This document shows positions 54,954 through 64,000 of a DNA stretch of 64,000 nucleotides, piece by piece. The notes under the pieces were generated by a model, which worked only from the letters and a program-made list of their open reading frames with translations, ran no database searches and was not told where the DNA came from. Positions within the stretch are counted from its first letter, which is position 1; each line of letters begins with the position of its first letter. The stretch is taken from contig CAIOFF010000005.1 in the NCBI GenBank assembly GCA_903857495.1, positions 62,001 to 126,000 on the forward strand, read 5' to 3'. The stretch is from an uncultured Holophagaceae bacterium (lineage in GTDB: Bacteria; Acidobacteriota; Holophagae; Holophagales; Holophagaceae). Position numbers and translations under genes: made by a program.

Positions 54954-55211
54954 ATGAGCGACCTGAAGCTGCGCGTCAAGGACATGATCATCGAGCGCCT
55001 GAAGCTCGAGGGGATGACCCCGGACCAGATCGACGACGGGGCCCCCCTCTTCGGCGACGGCCTGGGCCTGGACTCCATCGACGCCCTGGAGCTGGTCCTG
55101 GGCATCGAGCAGGTCTTCGGCGTCAAGATCGAGGACGAGGCGGCGGGCATGAAGGCCTTCAAGTCCGTCCAGGCCCTCACGGACTTCATCGCCGAGCACG
55201 CCAAGGTCTGA
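54954..55211 (+). CDS. Acyl carrier protein
   Basis: Product of 85 residues. The 4'-phosphopantetheine attachment Ser is residue 41 in LGLDSIDALELVL; the acidic four-helix ACP pattern is clear. It heads a run of five close or overlapping genes with a dehydratase and two ketosynthase-like proteins, so it is probably a dedicated rather than housekeeping ACP. Its Ser needs a phosphopantetheinyl transferase; one is fused to the protein encoded at 58819-63423. Confidence 0.92.
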   Translation: MSDLKLRVKDMIIERLKLEGMTPDQIDDGAPLFGDGLGLDSIDALELVLGIEQVFGVKIEDEAAGMKAFKSVQALTDFIAEHAKV

Positions 55212-55217
55212 GGCGTC

Positions 55218-55625
55218 ATGTCCGAGATCCCGGCCCACCTGCCGCACCGCTACCCCTTCCTGCTGGTGGACCGGATCCTCGAGCGGGAACCGGGCGTCCG
55301 GGTGGTGGCCGAGAAGCTGGTGACCAACGGCGAGCCCTACCTCCAGGGGCACTTCCAGGACCGGCCCCTGGTCCCGGGTGCCCTGCTGCTGGAGATGCTG
55401 GCCCAGGCCGGGGGGTTCCTGGAGGCCGAGTCCCTCCACGGCTCTGCCATCTTCCTGGCCGGGGTGCAGGATGCCCGGTTCCGGGCCCCGGCCTTCCCCG
55501 GTGACCGCCTGCGCCTGGAAGTGAAGGCCGCGGGGGCCTTCGGCGGGATCATGAAGCTCAGCGGCACCGTGAGCTGCGAGGGCCGCGAGCTCTGCACCGC
55601 CAGCCTCCTGGTCAAGCGCCCATGA
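55218..55625 (+). CDS. FabZ-like 3-hydroxyacyl-ACP dehydratase
   Basis: Product of 135 residues of the hot-dog fold. LPHRYPFLLVDRI at the N-terminus, catalytic His45 in LQGHFQDRP and Glu59 in PGALLLEMLAQ match FabZ. It lies 6 bp after the ACP gene and overlaps the ketosynthase start by four bases. It probably dehydrates intermediates on the adjacent ACP. Confidence 0.88.
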   Translation: MSEIPAHLPHRYPFLLVDRILEREPGVRVVAEKLVTNGEPYLQGHFQDRPLVPGALLLEMLAQAGGFLEAESLHGSAIFLAGVQDARFRAPAFPGDRLRLEVKAAGAFGGIMKLSGTVSCEGRELCTASLLVKRP

Positions 55626-56806
55626 GCCGCTCCCGGGTCGTGGTCACGGGCCTGGGCATGGTGTCCAGCCTGGCCCTGGATCGGGAGGTCACCTGGGCCG
55701 CCATGCTCAACGGCCAGGACGGCCTGGGCCCCCTGACCCGCCTCCACCTGCCCGCGGAGCCCGCCCAGCTCGCCGGCCAGGTGCCCATGGAGGCCGGCCG
55801 CCACCAGACCCTCTGCGAGCGCATGGCCCTGCGGGCGCTGGCCGAAGCCCTGGACGGATTCCGGCCCGGCGGGGATCCAGCCCGGATCGGGGTGTTCCAG
55901 GGGGCGGGCACCAGCGGCCTGCCCGTGGCCGAGGCCTTCCTCGAGGACCGCCTGGCCGGGCGCCGGGGCCGGGCCGCCGAGGCCGCCTACCAGAGCCCCT
56001 GCACCGTGGCCGACGCCCTGGCCTTGCACCTGGGCGCCACGGGCCCCCGGGCCACCGTGATGAACGCGTGCTCCTCCAGCCTGCTGGCCCTGGGCATGGC
56101 CTGGGAGCGGCTGGCCGCCGGCGAGCTGGACCTCGCCCTGGCCGGCGGCGCCGAGGGCCTCTGCCGCACCACCTACGGCGGCTTCTCCTGCCTGAAGGCC
56201 GTGGACCCCCGGAAGTGCCGCCCCTTCAGCCGAGACCGGGCGGGCCTGAACCTGGGCGAGGGCGCCGTGCAGCTGCTGCTGGAGCCCCTCGAGCGGGCCC
56301 AGGCCCGGGGCGCGGTCATCTTTGCCGAGGTCCTGGCCTACGGCGCCAGCATGGATGCCCACCACCCCACGGCCCCCCATCCCGAGGGCGAGGGCGCCGC
56401 CCGGGCCATGACCCAGGCCCTGCGCGCCGGGAGCCTGACCCCCGCCGAAGTGGACCTGGTCTCCGCCCATGGCACCGCCACCCCGGCCAATGACGGGGCC
56501 GAGTGCCTGGCCATCCGCCGGGCCCTGGGAGCCGCCGCGGACCAGGTATCTGTCACCAGCACCAAGAGTCAGTTCGGCCACACCCTCGGCTCCGCCGGTG
56601 CCTTCGGAGCCGCCAGCGCCATCCTCGCCCTCCGGGACCAGGTGGTGAGCCCCACCCTGCGGCTGGAGGATCCGGATCCCCTCTGCGACCTGGACTGCAC
56701 CCCCCTGGTGGCCAAGCAGCGCCTCGTCCGAGCGGCGCTGGTCAACGCCTTTGCCTTTGGTGGAAACAACCTGAGCCTGGCCCTGGGCCGCTGGGAGGGC
56801 CGATGA
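55622..56806 (+). CDS. Beta-ketoacyl-ACP synthase, active (KS-alpha type)
   Basis: Product of 394 residues with the full Cys-His-His triad: Cys150 in VMNACSSS, His283 in SAHGTATPAND and His320 in FGHTLGSAGAFGA. It is of the FabF/KS-alpha class and elongates acyl chains on ACP. Both ends overlap neighbours (ATGA), so it is tightly coupled to the dehydratase and the KS-beta-like gene. Confidence 0.9.
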   Translation: MSRSRVVVTGLGMVSSLALDREVTWAAMLNGQDGLGPLTRLHLPAEPAQLAGQVPMEAGRHQTLCERMALRALAEALDGFRPGGDPARIGVFQGAGTSGLPVAEAFLEDRLAGRRGRAAEAAYQSPCTVADALALHLGATGPRATVMNACSSSLLALGMAWERLAAGELDLALAGGAEGLCRTTYGGFSCLKAVDPRKCRPFSRDRAGLNLGEGAVQLLLEPLERAQARGAVIFAEVLAYGASMDAHHPTAPHPEGEGAARAMTQALRAGSLTPAEVDLVSAHGTATPANDGAECLAIRRALGAAADQVSVTSTKSQFGHTLGSAGAFGAASAILALRDQVVSPTLRLEDPDPLCDLDCTPLVAKQRLVRAALVNAFAFGGNNLSLALGRWEGR

Positions 56807-57891
56807 GCCACCCTGGGAGCGACCTCGTCCTCACGGGCCTCGGTCTGGTGCTGCCCTGCGGCGACGGGATCGCGGCGGCCCGCGCCAGCCTGGCGGCGGG
56901 CTTGCCCTGCTTCGCGGAGCTGCCCGAGGCCCTCGGCGCGGGTCGGGGCGCCGCCTGCACGGCCTTCCAGCCCGCGGGCATCATCCCCCCCATGCAGCTG
57001 CGGCGCCTGGACCGGGCCTCCCGGTTCGCCTGGGTCGCGGCTCACCAGGCCTTCCAGGACGCGAACCTCGACCCCAGGGCCCTGGGCGAGCGCTTCGCCG
57101 TGAGCGTCGGCAGCATGACCGGCGGCAGCGAGGCCAGCGAAGCCTTCATGCGGCCCTACCTCCAGCGCGGCCCCGAGGGCGCCTCGCCCATGGTGTTCCC
57201 CAACACCGTGGCCAACGCCGCCAGCGGCCACCTGGCCCTGGCCTTCGGCCTCAAGGGCCCGAGCGCCACCTTCGTGGACCGCGAGAACGCCGCCTTCGCG
57301 GCCCTGGACCAGGCGGCCCGCTGGCTCCGCGCCGATCTCGCGGACGCGGCCCTGGTGCTCGGCGTGGACGGCCTCTTCCCCCTGCTGCTGGACGTCTGCC
57401 GCGGCACCCGGCTGCTGGCCCGCCGCGGGCTGCCCGAGGTGGGCTCGGGCCGCGGCTTCCTGCCAGGCGAGGGCGCCCAGGCCTTCCTGCTGGAGCGCCG
57501 CGCCTCCGCCGAGGCTCGCGGCGCCCGGCCCCGGGCCACCCTGGCCGGCCTGGCCTGCCGCTCGTCCCTGGGCCACGCCCGCGCCGACCGCACCGAGGCC
57601 CTGGCCGCCGCCACGAGCGCCCTGAGCGACGCCCCCCTGGATCGGCGCATCGGCGGCGGCAGCGGCCTGAGCCAGCTGGATGCCCTGGAGCTGGCCCTGG
57701 CCGCGGCGCACCAGCAGTGGCCCACCGCCGTCCATCCCAAGACGCTCTGGGGCGAGTTCGCCGGCTCCGGGGGCCAGCTCCTGGCCGCCGCCCTGCTGGA
57801 GCCTGTGGCCCGGACCCTGGTCACGGCCCCCGCCAGCGCCGGTGCCCAGTTCGCGGCGCTGCTCGAAGGCGTTAGTCTGGATCGGTCATGA
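56803..57891 (+). CDS. Inactive ketosynthase-like partner (KS-beta / chain-length-factor type)
   Basis: Product of 362 residues, co-linear with the preceding ketosynthase but without catalytic residues. The Cys position is Glu161 (FVDRENAAF), and neither the HGTxT nor the GHTLG histidine motif is present (the corresponding region reads GGGSGLSQLDALEL). Chain-length factors of type II PKS and aryl-polyene systems replace Cys with Gln and pair with an active KS. This protein is likely the structural partner of the KS at 55622. The longer in-frame start inside that gene was rejected; the ATG at 56803 overlaps its stop. Confidence 0.82.
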   Translation: MSHPGSDLVLTGLGLVLPCGDGIAAARASLAAGLPCFAELPEALGAGRGAACTAFQPAGIIPPMQLRRLDRASRFAWVAAHQAFQDANLDPRALGERFAVSVGSMTGGSEASEAFMRPYLQRGPEGASPMVFPNTVANAASGHLALAFGLKGPSATFVDRENAAFAALDQAARWLRADLADAALVLGVDGLFPLLLDVCRGTRLLARRGLPEVGSGRGFLPGEGAQAFLLERRASAEARGARPRATLAGLACRSSLGHARADRTEALAAATSALSDAPLDRRIGGGSGLSQLDALELALAAAHQQWPTAVHPKTLWGEFAGSGGQLLAAALLEPVARTLVTAPASAGAQFAALLEGVSLDRS

Positions 57892-58818: not shown

Positions 58819-61800
58819 TCAGCCGCCGGTCTGCTGGGCGACGGCCACGAGGTAGGTCCGGCCGCCCAGGCTGCGCTCGTGGAACTCGAGGTGCCAGCCC
58901 TCGGCCAAGCGCTCACTGCCGCAGAGTCGGCCCAGCTGCAGCCCAAGGCCTTCCCGGGGCGCGAACTCGATCTGCTCCAGGCCGAAGGCGAAACCCTGGC
59001 CGAGGGCCTTGAGCACCGCCTCCTTGGCGGTCCACAGCCGCAGGCGGGCCTGCCAGCGGCTGGCTTCCGGCTGGCTCGTCACCCAGGCCTGCTCGGTCGG
59101 CAGGAACAGCTCCGCGGCCCGGTCCAGGTGCTCGGAGGGTGCCAGCAGCTCCAGGTCCACGCCCACCCGGCCCGCTTCGGCAAGGGCCGTGACCGTGGCT
59201 CCGGGCGCATGGGCCCGGCTCAGGGAGAGGACCCGGCCCTGGCCATCCTGCACGCGAGGCCGACCCTGGGTGTCCGGGGCCAGCGGGATCAGGTCAGCGT
59301 TCCCAGTGGGCGCCCCGGGCAGGGGGTTTTCCTGAAGGAGAACCCGAACCTTGCCTGACCCTGCGGCCTCAGGCGGCCTCGAGCCGGCGGAGGGTGGCGG
59401 CGGAACCCCGGCGGGCCGGGCGGGCGAGCCCTCCCAGCGGGTGCCCGCGGGCAGGGTCTCGCCCTTCATGAGCAGGGACAGGTCGCCGAGGACCGCTTCC
59501 GGCTCCATCCGCGACCCGTAGAGCACCACCGAGTCCGTGCCCACGGAGCAGCCGGCGCCGAGGTCGATGTGATCCATCTTCATCACCCGGTCCTCGAACA
59601 GGTGGGTCTGCACCGTGGCGTCGGCGCCCAGGCAGACCTCATCGCCCAGGGACACCAGGTCGTATTCCGTCAGCCAGGTGCTCTCCATGCAGACCCGCCG
59701 GCCGATCCGCGCGCCCAACAAGCGGAAATAGAGCGGGATCAGGGCCGTGCCCTGCAGCAGCTGCAGGAGCCAGCTGTCGGCGAGGTTCTCGTGCAGGCTG
59801 CTGATGAGCTCCGTGCGCCACACAAAGCTGCACCACAGGGGCTGCTCCCCGGGCTGGTAGCGGCCCATGACCACCCACTTGGCCACCACCACGAAGAGGC
59901 AGGCGGCCAGCCCCGCGGCCAGGTAGAGGAGCGGCAGGGCCAGCACCGCGACCAGGAGCGACGTGGCCTCCTCGATCTCCGTGAGGCTGGTGAGCAGCAG
60001 GCTGGTCAGCACCACGAAGCCCGTGGCGGGAGCCAGCACCCGGAACTGCTCGATGAAGGCCCGGAGGACGATCATGCGCTTCCGGGGCCGGAAGGTGGCC
60101 TCCTCCCCGAAGTCACCACTGGCCTGGCGGCGGGGCAGGAAGATGGCCGGCGAGCCCAGCCAGGAGCTGTCCACCCGGGCGGCATCCTCGGGGGCCGTGG
60201 GCGGCACCGAGAGGACTCCGACCAGGACGCTGTCGCCCAGGACGGTGCCCGCAGGCACCAGGGCGCTGTTGCCCACGAAGGCCCGGCGGCCCACGGTGGT
60301 GCGGGCGAGGGTCACCTGCCCGAGGTCCACCCGGGCGGGACCGAAGGACACACAGTCCGCGATGAAGCTCTCCTCGCCGATGTCGAGCAGGTCGGGGTTG
60401 CCGGACCCGGCCGTGGAGACCTCGGCCCAGGGCCCCAGCCGCGCCCCCAGGAGGCGGAACCAGGGCGGCAGGTAGAGCGTGGCATAGAGCGGCGCCAGCA
60501 GGTCGAGCCCCATGGCCATGAGCCGGTCCACGAACCACTTCCGCTGGATGAAGCCACTGTGCAGGTCGTAGGTGCCGGGCTGCACCCGGCCCACCAGCAG
60601 CCACTTCGCGGCGGCGATCTCCAGGGCCAGCAGCACCACGAAGGAGAGGGCCACCAGGGGGGCCACCACCAGGTAGGCGAAGTAGCCGTTGGAGTTCGCG
60701 TAGAACTCGTTGATGAGGATCAGGCCCGGGAAGATCGCGGCCAGGAAGGCGATGGGCACCAGGAAGGCGCCTGCGGCCTTGGCCAAGGTGGAAAGGAAGC
60801 GCCGGCTCCGCGACACGGGGGGCAGCAGCCGCTCTCCGCGGTCCGAGTCCGCGGCGCTGAGGGGGAGCGGCCGGGCGGGAGAGCCCACCCAGCGCTGACC
60901 CACGGGAATCCGCCCACCCGCCGGTAGCAGGCTCAGGTCGTCGAGCATGGCCCCGGCTTCCAGCTCCGAGCCCAGGGCCAGGATGGAGCGGTTGCCTACG
61001 TAGGCATGGGCGCCGACGCCGATGGGGCCGATCTCTAGAAAACCAGCCTCCAGGGTGTAGCCGCTGAGGCGGGCGTCCTGGCCGATGCTGGCCCCGTCGC
61101 CGATGTGGATCAGGTCGAAGGCCGCCAGGGAGGTGGTGCCCAGGTGGACGTCCTTGCCGATGCGCGCCCCGAGCAGGCGGAAATACCAGACCAGCAGCGG
61201 CGACTCGACCAGGTAGTCGAGGGGGGTGGCGGCAATGATTCGCTGGGCCAGCCACCAGCGCCAGTAGTAGAAGCCCCAGAGCCGGTGCCGGCCCGGGCGG
61301 ATCCGCCCCAGGAGGACCCACTTCGCGGCGATGGAGACCAGATACATGGCCGGATAGACCAGCCCCAGCGACAGCAAGGCCGCCGCGATGCCCGTGGACC
61401 GCGGCAGATCCTGATCCTGGGACCAGCTGTAGACCAGATAGGGGCTCATCCACTGCAGCGCGTAGAACCCCAGGAGCGGGTAGAGGGAAAGCACCTGGGC
61501 CGCGGTGCAGAGGCGGTGCACCCACAAGGAGGCCTTGGGTCGCGCCGGTCCTGCCGCCGGGGGCGGGGGAACGCCCCGCGCGGCCCGGGTGTCGAACTCC
61601 GCCGCCAGGGCCCGGAGGGTGGGGAACGCGTAGACGTCGGGCATGGCGAGCCCGGTGAAAGCCGCCTCCCGGCGCAGCTCCGAGACCATGGCCGCCGCCA
61701 CCAGCGAGTGCCCGCCCAGGTCCCGGAAGAAGTCCTCGTCCAGGTCCGGTTGGCGCCCATGGAAGAGGTGGGTCCAGCAGTCCGTGAGCCGAGCTTCCCG

Positions 61801-63423
61801 GGGGGACCGGGTCGCGTCCGGCGCGGGCGACGCGGTCCGCACGGCTGGTGCCGGGAGACCCCGGCGGTCCACCTTGCCACTGGCCAGGGTGGGCAGCGCG
61901 GCCAGGGCCTCGAGGCAGGCGGGCACCATGTAGGAGGGCAGTCGCTCGCGCAGTCCGCGGAGCAGCACAGCCTCGTCCACGGCCTGGCCGGGCCGGGGGA
62001 CCACGTAGCCCACCAGCCGCTCCAGGGCGCCGTCCTTGAGGAGGACCACCGCCGCCGCCAGCACCGAGGGCTCCTGGCGCAGGGCCGCCTCGATCTCCTC
62101 CAGCTCGATGCGGAAGCCCCGCAGCTTCACCTGCGCATCGATGCGGCCAAGGAACTCCAGGTCCCCCTCGCTGTTGAAGCGGACGAGGTCCCCGGTGCGG
62201 TAGAGCCGCTCGGTGAAGGGACCGTCCGCATAGGGGTTCGGGAGGAAGCGCTCGGCGGTGAGCTCAGGCCGGCCCAGGTAGCCCGCCGAGAGGCCCGCGC
62301 CGGACAGGTGGAGCTCGCCTGCGGTGCCGCGGGGGCAGAGCCGCCCCTGCTCGTCCAGGACATACACGCGGGCATTGGGCACCGCCCGGCCGATGGTCAC
62401 GGGGCGGCCCGGCTGCAGGTCGGTCCAGGTGGCGATCACCGTTGCCTCGGTGGGACCATAGGTGTTCACCAGGCGGAGTCCCGGCCGGGCCCACCGCGTC
62501 ACCAGGTCCGCGGGGCAGGCCTCGCCCCCCAGGATGAGCAGGCGCAGGGAGGGGATCGCGTCCTCCACGAGGCCCAGCAGGGTGGGCACCGTCGAGAACA
62601 CCGTGACCCCCGCCGCCTCCAGGCGGCGGCCCAGCTCGGGGCCGGCCTGCATGAAAGATTGGGTCCCCACCACCAGGCAGGCCCCGCTGGCCCAGGCCAG
62701 CCAGAGCTCCTCGACGGAGGCGTCAAAGGCCAGGGAGAAGCCCTGGAAGACGCGATCCTCGGGACCGACGCCGAAGAGCTGCGCCTCGGCGCGCACGAGG
62801 GTGCAGGCAGAGCGGTGGGTGATGGGCACACCCTTGGGAGTGCCCGTGGAGCCCGAGGTGAAGATGACATAGGCCAGGTCCCCGGTGCCCGGGGTCGAAA
62901 GGGGCAGGTGGCCTGTGCTCGAGTCCTGATCACCCCCCAGCGCCGAGGGACCCAGCACCGGGCAGCCGAGCCCCGGCAGGTCCGCCGCGGTCAGCAGCAG
63001 GTCCATGCCGCACTCCTGGGCCACCTGCAGCACCCGCGCCGGCGGCAGCTCCGGGTCCAGGGGCACGTAGGCCGCACCGGCCTTGAGGATGCCCAGCAGG
63101 GCCGCGTAGGCGGTGGCACCCCGCGGCAGCCAGAGACCCACCAAGGCGCCGCTGCCGAGGCCCCGGGACCAGAGGGCCTGGGCCAGGCGGTCGGAGAGCC
63201 GGTCGAGCGCCGCGTAGCTCAGCACGCGACCATCCTCGCTGAGGGCCGGGCGCTGGGCATGGCGCGCCACGGTCGCCGCGAAGATCGCCGGCAGGGTCTC
63301 GTCCCGGGTCAGCGCGGGGTCGTGGGGCGCACCCGACAGCGGACCCCGCAGCAGGGCCTCCTCCTGGGCCGACAGCCGGGGCAGGTCGCCGGGCCGCGGT
63401 TCGGGAGCATCGGGAGAGGACAT
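58819..63423 (-). CDS. Pls/PosA-type membrane NRPS (poly-amino-acid synthetase-like) with fused phosphopantetheinyl transferase
   Basis: About 1534 residues (ATG at 63423; GTG at 63429 also possible, no clear Shine-Dalgarno). Domains in order: adenylation (about 45-530: FTSGSTGTPKGVPITH, NTYGPTEATV, YRTGDLVR, LASGKVDRRG); carrier (LGGHSL, Ser at about 575); then three repeats, each a membrane-helix pair ending in AKW(V/L)-x-x-GR-x-x-PG, an FRLLGAR(I/L)G stretch and a left-handed beta-helix. This A-T-(2TM-LbH)x3 layout is that of epsilon-poly-lysine synthetases. From about 1320 to the end lies an Sfp-type PPTase with VGVDLEL and WTAKEAVLKALG, extra to the known layout. It probably activates its own carrier and releases or polymerises an amino acid at the membrane. 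The substrate is not deducible. Confidence 0.85.
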   Translation of the reverse strand: MSSPDAPEPRPGDLPRLSAQEEALLRGPLSGAPHDPALTRDETLPAIFAATVARHAQRPALSEDGRVLSYAALDRLSDRLAQALWSRGLGSGALVGLWLPRGATAYAALLGILKAGAAYVPLDPELPPARVLQVAQECGMDLLLTAADLPGLGCPVLGPSALGGDQDSSTGHLPLSTPGTGDLAYVIFTSGSTGTPKGVPITHRSACTLVRAEAQLFGVGPEDRVFQGFSLAFDASVEELWLAWASGACLVVGTQSFMQAGPELGRRLEAAGVTVFSTVPTLLGLVEDAIPSLRLLILGGEACPADLVTRWARPGLRLVNTYGPTEATVIATWTDLQPGRPVTIGRAVPNARVYVLDEQGRLCPRGTAGELHLSGAGLSAGYLGRPELTAERFLPNPYADGPFTERLYRTGDLVRFNSEGDLEFLGRIDAQVKLRGFRIELEEIEAALRQEPSVLAAAVVLLKDGALERLVGYVVPRPGQAVDEAVLLRGLRERLPSYMVPACLEALAALPTLASGKVDRRGLPAPAVRTASPAPDATRSPREARLTDCWTHLFHGRQPDLDEDFFRDLGGHSLVAAAMVSELRREAAFTGLAMPDVYAFPTLRALAAEFDTRAARGVPPPPAAGPARPKASLWVHRLCTAAQVLSLYPLLGFYALQWMSPYLVYSWSQDQDLPRSTGIAAALLSLGLVYPAMYLVSIAAKWVLLGRIRPGRHRLWGFYYWRWWLAQRIIAATPLDYLVESPLLVWYFRLLGARIGKDVHLGTTSLAAFDLIHIGDGASIGQDARLSGYTLEAGFLEIGPIGVGAHAYVGNRSILALGSELEAGAMLDDLSLLPAGGRIPVGQRWVGSPARPLPLSAADSDRGERLLPPVSRSRRFLSTLAKAAGAFLVPIAFLAAIFPGLILINEFYANSNGYFAYLVVAPLVALSFVVLLALEIAAAKWLLVGRVQPGTYDLHSGFIQRKWFVDRLMAMGLDLLAPLYATLYLPPWFRLLGARLGPWAEVSTAGSGNPDLLDIGEESFIADCVSFGPARVDLGQVTLARTTVGRRAFVGNSALVPAGTVLGDSVLVGVLSVPPTAPEDAARVDSSWLGSPAIFLPRRQASGDFGEEATFRPRKRMIVLRAFIEQFRVLAPATGFVVLTSLLLTSLTEIEEATSLLVAVLALPLLYLAAGLAACLFVVVAKWVVMGRYQPGEQPLWCSFVWRTELISSLHENLADSWLLQLLQGTALIPLYFRLLGARIGRRVCMESTWLTEYDLVSLGDEVCLGADATVQTHLFEDRVMKMDHIDLGAGCSVGTDSVVLYGSRMEPEAVLGDLSLLMKGETLPAGTRWEGSPARPAGVPPPPSAGSRPPEAAGSGKVRVLLQENPLPGAPTGNADLIPLAPDTQGRPRVQDGQGRVLSLSRAHAPGATVTALAEAGRVGVDLELLAPSEHLDRAAELFLPTEQAWVTSQPEASRWQARLRLWTAKEAVLKALGQGFAFGLEQIEFAPREGLGLQLGRLCGSERLAEGWHLEFHERSLGGRTYLVAVAQQTGG

Positions 63424-63557
63424 GGGCACCAGGAAGCGACAAGACCGTGAGCAGCCCCAGAGTTCCCCAGGGGGGATCGACCCTCGTCACCTGACGCCTT
63501 GCCCATACTAGCGACCCGCCAGGGGTCTGTCGGGTTGAGACGTGCGCCTCGTGGAGA

Positions 63558-64000
63558 TCACGGCTTAGGGTAGACCCGGATGCCCACCCACTTTTTCAGG
63601 ATCACCTTGCCGGGGGCGAAGCCGCGGGGCTTGCTGATGTCGGCGATGCGGGCCATGTGGACTTCGACCTTGCCGCCGTCCCGGGCCTTGCTGTGGTAGG
63701 CGGCCAGCTCGGCGGCGCGCTCCACCACCTGCCGCGGCAGCTCGCTCAGCTTGTCGGGGTTGCGCAGCACCACATGGCTGCCGGGCACGCTGGCCACGTG
63801 GAACCAGAAGTCGGTGTTGTCGGCCACCTTGAAGGTGAGCTGGTCGTTCTCGGCATCACCCTTGCCGATGAGCACCTCGAAGCCGTCCACCATGACGCTG
63901 CGGAAGGCGATGCCCTTGCCGTCCTTGCGCTTGCCCTCTGCCCCCTGCATCCGCTTGTTCCCCTTGGCCTGCGGCGCGCGCGGCCCTCTTGGTTGTCGCG
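63558..64000 (-). CDS. NFACT-R domain protein, cut by the window edge
   Basis: The frame stays open to the window edge, so the N-terminus is missing. The visible C-terminal 130 or so residues are the NFACT RNA-binding domain (VDGFEVLIGKGDAENDQLTFKVA, FWFHVASVPGSHVVLRNP, YHSKARDGGKVEVHMARIADISKPRG). It is preceded by a basic, low-complexity linker rich in Arg, Lys, Pro and Gly. In RqcH this domain belongs to ribosome rescue; short stand-alone NFACT-R proteins also exist, and the type cannot be decided here. Confidence 0.85.
   Translation of the reverse strand, partial: RQPRGPRAPQAKGNKRMQGAEGKRKDGKGIAFRSVMVDGFEVLIGKGDAENDQLTFKVADNTDFWFHVASVPGSHVVLRNPDKLSELPRQVVERAAELAAYHSKARDGGKVEVHMARIADISKPRGFAPGKVILKKWVGIRVYPKP

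Follow-up and report, generated by a model that had tools for sequence, protein, structure and literature searches.

Known Pls-type synthetases and phosphopantetheinyl transferases

Poly-lysine-type polymers serve as food preservatives and antimicrobials. Among the closest described systems to the gene analyzed here is the epsilon-poly-L-lysine synthetase (Pls) of Streptomyces (A domain, 7wew), in which an adenylation (A) domain and a thiolation or carrier (T) domain are followed by three repeats of a transmembrane (TM) hairpin plus a soluble domain. The delta-poly-L-ornithine synthetase PosA belongs to the same family and is described as a single-gene operon; its A-domain code is DMEHNGTVSK, it was primed in vitro by added Sfp, and a phosphopantetheinyl transferase (PPTase) domain is unmentioned (PMC10522769). 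The main text of the same paper, which presents a family network of 548 Pls/PosA members, does not contain the word PPTase (PMC10522769). Sfp itself (4mrt, 1qr0) is a free enzyme with a two-lobe fold and the motifs Asp-x-Glu and W-x-x-K-E-A. PPTases that are fused to the C-terminus of a carrier-bearing enzyme constitute group III, exemplified by the fungal FAS alpha subunit and enediyne PKS, and have been described as confined to fungal FAS and some Streptomyces PKS (PMC4103896).

The window, as we call the whole 64,000-nucleotide stretch of DNA that was analyzed, contains a gene that joins parts of these systems in one chain. The window belongs to the 3.7-Mb genome of a Geothrix-like member of the Holophagaceae (Acidobacteriota), which we take to be a soil or sediment bacterium related to Geothrix. 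The window protein has the same domain order as Streptomyces Pls and approximately 39% identity to it over the A, T, and C-terminal regions; however, Streptomyces Pls (record L162) stops after the third soluble domain, whereas the window protein continues into a PPTase. Each part is known, but the combination of a Pls with a fused PPTase was not found in the open-access literature that we searched, an absence that is weak evidence. Our best explanation, to which we assign a probability of roughly 0.65, is that the gene encodes a single-chain Pls/PosA synthetase that carries its own C-terminal PPTase, primes itself, converts L-lysine to epsilon-poly-L-lysine, and descends from a coupled gene pair that became fused.

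Domain layout of the fusion gene

The fusion gene lies on the reverse strand at positions 58819 to 63429, as do all of its features described below. It is a single unbroken open reading frame of 1536 codons when read from a GTG at 63429; an ATG at 63423 (residue 3) would give 1534 amino acids. The A domain (residues 50 to 519, positions 61873 to 63282) matches PF00501 (residues 50 to 385), PF13193 (445 to 519), and TIGR01733 (71 to 461). The T domain spans approximately residues 545 to 615 (61585 to 61797), with a PF00550 match at 561 to 610 and the motif GGHSL, whose position predicts Ser575 (61705 to 61707) as the phosphopantetheine site. The Pls/PosA polymerization (NRPS terminal) domain, defined by TIGR02353, hydropathy, and profile matches, covers residues 644 to 1337 (59419 to 61500); the TIGR02353 match extends over profile positions 2 to 695 of 695 (E 9e-202, 672 bits against a cut-off of 423). 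A full-length match above this curated cut-off, an N-terminal A and T domain, and Asp1 and Glu3 in the A-domain code place the protein in the Pls/PosA family. We found no condensation or thioesterase domain in the fusion protein in a Pfam search. The domain order proposed in an earlier sequence-only reading of this DNA, an A domain, a carrier, a Pls/PosA region, and a C-terminal PPTase, is thus borne out by the HMM domain search.

By hydropathy, the NRPS terminal domain appears to consist of three TM hairpins that alternate with three soluble, putative hexapeptide/beta-helix segments (C1 to C3). The sequence-only reading had proposed three repeats of a membrane-helix pair plus a beta-helix domain, and this gains support from hydropathy for the hairpins and, for C1 and C3, from profile matches to gamma-carbonic anhydrases and hexapeptide transferases that suggest a left-handed beta-helix. 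For C2 the evidence is a sub-threshold Hexapep match, and the first helix of the first TM pair is weak by hydropathy. The AlphaFold model of residues 544 to 1536 had a pLDDT of 44, too poor for fold assignment. Beta-helix repeats fit the published model of the Pls/PosA C-terminal domain (PMC10522769). With TM helices in three pairs, as hydropathy suggests, the T domain and the PPTase would face the same compartment, presumably the CoA-containing cytosol.

A variable linker rich in Pro, Ala, and Gly (residues 1338 to 1385, 59275 to 59418), marked by similar dN and dS and by low pLDDT, follows the NRPS terminal domain and reaches into the start of the PPTase. The Sfp-type PPTase domain, delimited by HMM, alignment, and AlphaFold, makes up residues 1359 to 1536 (58822 to 59355), with a PF01648 core at 1421 to 1513.

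Fold, motifs, and selection of the PPTase domain

The PF01648 match scored 58.1 bits against a cut-off of 25. We aligned 13 PPTase sequences (alignment A1), of which 11 are fused copies and two are free enzymes from Alphaproteobacteria. The metal/CoA motif GVDLEL (residues 1423 to 1428, 59146 to 59163), which contains the Asp-x-Glu of Sfp, has invariant G86, D88, and E90 in A1, and the catalytic motif WTAKEAVLKALG (residues 1466 to 1477, 58999 to 59034) has invariant W, A, K, E, A, K, L, and G in all 13 sequences. Both G-x-D-x-E and W-x-A-K-E-A-x-x-K are invariant across the alignment. When the A1 profile was compared with PDB sequences, the fungal FAS PPT domain ranked first (E 2e-9); that domain has a single lobe, whereas the window protein, an NRPS-like membrane enzyme, carries a two-lobe domain of the Sfp type.

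Modeled separately, residues 1338 to 1536 gave a pLDDT of 83.6, with low values at model residues 1 to 21. Residues 24 to 198 of the model superpose on Sfp residues 1 to 209, and the comparison with carrier-bound Sfp (4mrt) aligned 163 residues with a Z of 14.4 and an rmsd of 3.5. AcpS chains matched the C-terminal lobe only (Z up to 13.3, approximately 106 residues). Since the match to Sfp spans both lobes and the match to AcpS only one, the fused domain, as modeled, is a two-lobe Sfp-type (group II) PPTase. Its N-lobe is shortened: the domain has approximately 178 residues rather than the usual 220, and 163 of the 225 Sfp residues align. The fold, the HMM score, and the intact motifs agree with the earlier proposal of a complete Sfp-type PPTase at the end of the protein.

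Comparing the window gene with six homologues, we estimated a dN/dS of approximately 0.2 to 0.5 for the PPTase, the same range as for the A and T domains. In the linker, dN was close to dS in four more diverged homologue pairs. These ratios indicate that purifying selection acts on the PPTase domain and not on the linker.

Distribution of the fusion in the genus Geothrix

A homology search of genome contigs found the whole-length fusion, including the PPTase, in ten Holophagaceae genome records at 67 to 100% identity. The next-best matches were alphaproteobacterial and ended at approximately residue 1340, before the PPTase. In a sample with one genome per species, the fusion was present in 13 of 47 genomes of the genus, among them Geothrix limicola Red804 (L026); 12 of these have a long open frame, and the other (G1034) has two contigs that start inside the gene. 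The in-frame linkers of the fused copies vary in length and sequence.

One single-contig genome, G020, encodes the PPTase in a separate open reading frame whose ATG overlaps the Pls stop codon by 4 nt (ATGA). In a tree of Pls proteins, the fused clade falls within Holophagaceae, and G020 is nested among the fused copies; this is a quick tree in which the deep position of long branches is unsure. Because of that nesting, the split in G020 looks secondary, with a sequencing error there as another possibility.

Coupled Pls and PPTase genes in other lineages

Two members of a sister genus, G408 and G1050, carry Pls and PPTase as two genes that overlap by 4 nt (GTGA), and their PPTases read GVDLVD and CREA in place of GVDLE and KEA. 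A third, G123, has a Pls without an adjoining PPTase gene and PPTases elsewhere in the genome. We also found such pairs in Pseudomonadota, where a PPTase gene adjoins Pls in 12 of 31 Pls-bearing genomes (11 downstream, 1 upstream); the 31 comprise 30 genomes plus G415, from class- and phylum-wide draws, and downstream PPTases were located by PF01648 coordinates together with reading frames. The overlaps are 4 nt in four alphaproteobacterial genomes (G414, G415, G416, and G430) and 1 nt in G875, and on a Sphingomonas plasmid an annotated PPTase gene overlaps Pls by 4 nt. The pairs of Sphingomonas, Agrobacterium, a Caulobacterales MAG, and the Holophagaceae sister genus have the same activities, order, and 4-nt overlap, but they encode separate polypeptides, whereas the window gene encodes one chain. 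Apart from the Geothrix copies, we saw no PPTase fusion among the Pls frames that we examined from Acidobacteriota, Pseudomonadota, and plasmids, with Actinomycetota represented by a few plasmid records. The survey of homologues and the literature search both agree with the sequence-only reading that a fused PPTase lies outside the described Pls layout.

The reading that fits best is that a translationally coupled pls-PPTase operon was joined into one gene. The fusion would have arisen in the Geothrix lineage when a coupled pair with a 4-nt stop/start overlap lost its boundary, an order of events that we infer from these comparisons. Beyond what had been noticed in the window itself, the fusion thus sits on a wider pattern of 4-nt-overlapping Pls-PPTase pairs in two phyla, and in both the coupled pair seems to be a Pls-family module that has gone without comment.

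Two other arrangements were observed. Six Pseudomonadota genomes (L187 to L192) have a Pls with the code DFEALGTVTK and a PPTase gene approximately 400 to 530 nt downstream. In another Acidobacteriota family, G376 and G401 encode divergent Pls-like synthetases (L126 and L127) of 1705 to 1710 residues with a C-terminal extension, TIGR02353 matches of E 1e-45 to 1e-50, the code DGSFVATTDK, which has no Glu, and a separate PPTase gene 2 to 6 nt after the synthetase gene. From their sequences, these are possibly another branch with a noncationic substrate.

Carrier proteins and PPTases

The window genome has two PF01648 matches, an AcpS on contig 42 and the fused domain, and three carriers: an AcpP-like protein, an acyl carrier protein (ACP) encoded at 54954, and the T domain of Pls, which is the only carrier of the NRPS type. 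AcpS-type PPTases activate ACPs and do not accept PCPs (PMC9769936), so the Pls T domain is the obvious client of the fused PPTase. We searched 36 genomes of the genus for both families and found a full-length Pls in 10, each with a second PPTase, which is fused to Pls in 9 and encoded next to it in 1; among the genomes without Pls, 25 of 26 have AcpS alone, although these counts come from related genomes and are not 36 independent events. The exception, G007, has its second PPTase in a different cluster, a small NRPS-like one (L084, G007:C5) with an A-T protein of 643 residues and its own Sfp-type PPTase.

The ACP at 54954 had been suggested as a further target. We rejected it as a dedicated target because it belongs to the core of the genus, where 44 of 47 genomes carry it at 83 to 100% identity, and is usually unlinked to Pls; its presence in 30 of the 32 genomes that have AcpS only indicates that it is independent of the fused PPTase.

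Self-priming, which the sequence-only reading also favored, is the likeliest role predicted for the fused PPTase, with the simplest mechanism. The T domain is its putative target, and with carrier and PPTase encoded in one open reading frame the arrangement is that of a group III (integrated) PPTase. The catalytic activity, self-priming, substrate, product, and cytosolic location that we infer would combine as follows. Ser575 of the T domain would receive 4'-phosphopantetheine from CoA through the action of the PPTase domain, either within one chain or between neighboring copies; the A domain would then adenylate L-lysine and load it on the phosphopantetheine arm; and the membrane-bound C1 to C3 unit would polymerize lysine through side-chain amide bonds to epsilon-poly-L-lysine. 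Genome G181, which has a Pls-like gene and a single PPTase match, counts against this explanation; a Pls-like enzyme may manage there without an Sfp-type PPTase, or a PPTase may have been missed. The split in G020 and the two-gene form in the sister genus imply that the covalent fusion is dispensable.

Predicted substrate and product

The A-domain code is DAESIGTVIK (D236, A237, E240, S279, I299, G301, T323, V331, I332, and K519), and it is identical in 14 distinct Holophagaceae proteins of the clade (the window protein and 13 others). In our alignment, the crystallized epsilon-poly-lysine synthase 7wew and a Streptomyces enzyme annotated as Pls both have DAESIGTVVK, so the window code differs from that of 7wew only at position 9 (Ile versus Val) and is identical at 9 of 10 positions. 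We know of no assayed enzyme with the code DAESIGTVIK. Ala at code position 2 marks the lysine enzymes of the family, and Glu at position 3, shared by all its enzymes, binds the side-chain amine; the poly-beta-lysine synthetase code is DGESISVVNK (PMC10522769). Judged by this code, L-lysine is likely the substrate and epsilon-poly-L-lysine the product. Because the code is one residue from that of an epsilon-poly-L-lysine synthase, a polymer that is already known seems the most plausible product, and the code does not favor what was envisaged from the sequence alone, an isopeptide polymer of a new kind or a modified amino acid.

Two variants were noted among related synthetases. An Acidobacteriota Pls (L078, G058) has a pocket that varies at the chain-length position, with DLESIGTVIK as its code. 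Two Geothrix genomes encode a second, divergent Pls-like synthetase without a PPTase (L083, G003:C248; L080, G004:C16), with the code DSECYGGVTK; activation of L-arginine has been described for an A domain that shares it (PMC10522769). The fused PPTase could prime these synthetases in trans.

Alternative explanations and implications

One alternative to our reading concerns the monomer. A self-priming enzyme of the same build might use ornithine, beta-lysine, arginine, or a modified diamino acid and make another polymer, which we consider a minor but real possibility: codes are degenerate, position 9 differs from 7wew, and arginine activation is on record for a family member whose code is atypical (PMC10522769). 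However, the codes of PosA and of the poly-beta-lysine synthetase are both further from the window code than that of the lysine enzyme, and the clade-wide constancy of DAESIGTVIK argues against a shift. It is rather unlikely that the PPTase instead acts mainly in trans as a general Sfp-type enzyme, serving for example the ACP at 54954 or a second Pls, with the fusion incidental. The second Pls-like enzymes of G003 and G004 would need an Sfp-type PPTase, and an ACP operon lies near the fusion gene in the window lineage; against this stand the occurrence of the ACP in AcpS-only genomes, the lack of any further NRPS-type carrier in the window genome, and the fact that a second PPTase in the genus accompanies Pls only, the one exception being G007, which has an A-T gene of its own.

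We regard it as improbable that the PPTase domain is degenerate or structural, with the T domain primed by AcpS or left unprimed. The shortened N-lobe and the altered motifs of the two-gene versions in G408 and G1050 are compatible with decay, but all aligned fused copies keep D-L-E and W-x-A-K-E-A-x-x-K-A-L-G, dN/dS is well under 1, and the predicted fold is confident. Metagenome-assembled records can contain frameshifts, and G020 and G408 show the two-gene form, so an assembly or frameshift artefact joining two genes had to be considered; the recurrence of the fused frame in 13 genomes of the genus, including Geothrix limicola Red804, with differing linkers, refutes it, and we give it practically no weight.

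We think it probable that the PPTase encoded in the window is of group III and sits on an NRPS-like enzyme, so that the whole would be a self-priming, one-gene epsilon-poly-lysine factory derived from a fused, coupled pls-PPTase pair. If so, an NRPS-like membrane enzyme would join fungal FAS and enediyne PKS as a bearer of an integrated PPTase. Outside their native host, Pls-type synthetases need a PPTase that accepts their carrier, as with the Sfp added for PosA (PMC10522769); a self-priming version, if confirmed, would be a one-gene tool, and one gene may do where two are normally needed. The separate, overlapping, fused, and re-split forms provide a natural series in which the influence of carrier priming on gene fusion can be studied. 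Our reading also predicts poly-lysine production in Geothrix, of which we found no report in the literature searched.

Genes flanking the fusion

We considered and rejected a dedicated biosynthetic neighborhood because the flanks of the fusion gene vary between lineages: nuo and ACP-FabZ-KAS genes in the window lineage, cytochrome oxidase and panB-panC in others, and different genes again elsewhere. In the window, the operon at 54954 to 57891 on the forward strand encodes the ACP, a FabZ-like dehydratase, a ketosynthase with the motif ACSSS, and a ketosynthase-like protein that lacks the active-site Cys and resembles a chain-length factor; as a whole, it resembles a conserved type II synthase. 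Adjoining the fusion gene is a small, free-standing open reading frame of 130 amino acids with an NFACT-R domain (63558 to 63950, reverse strand).
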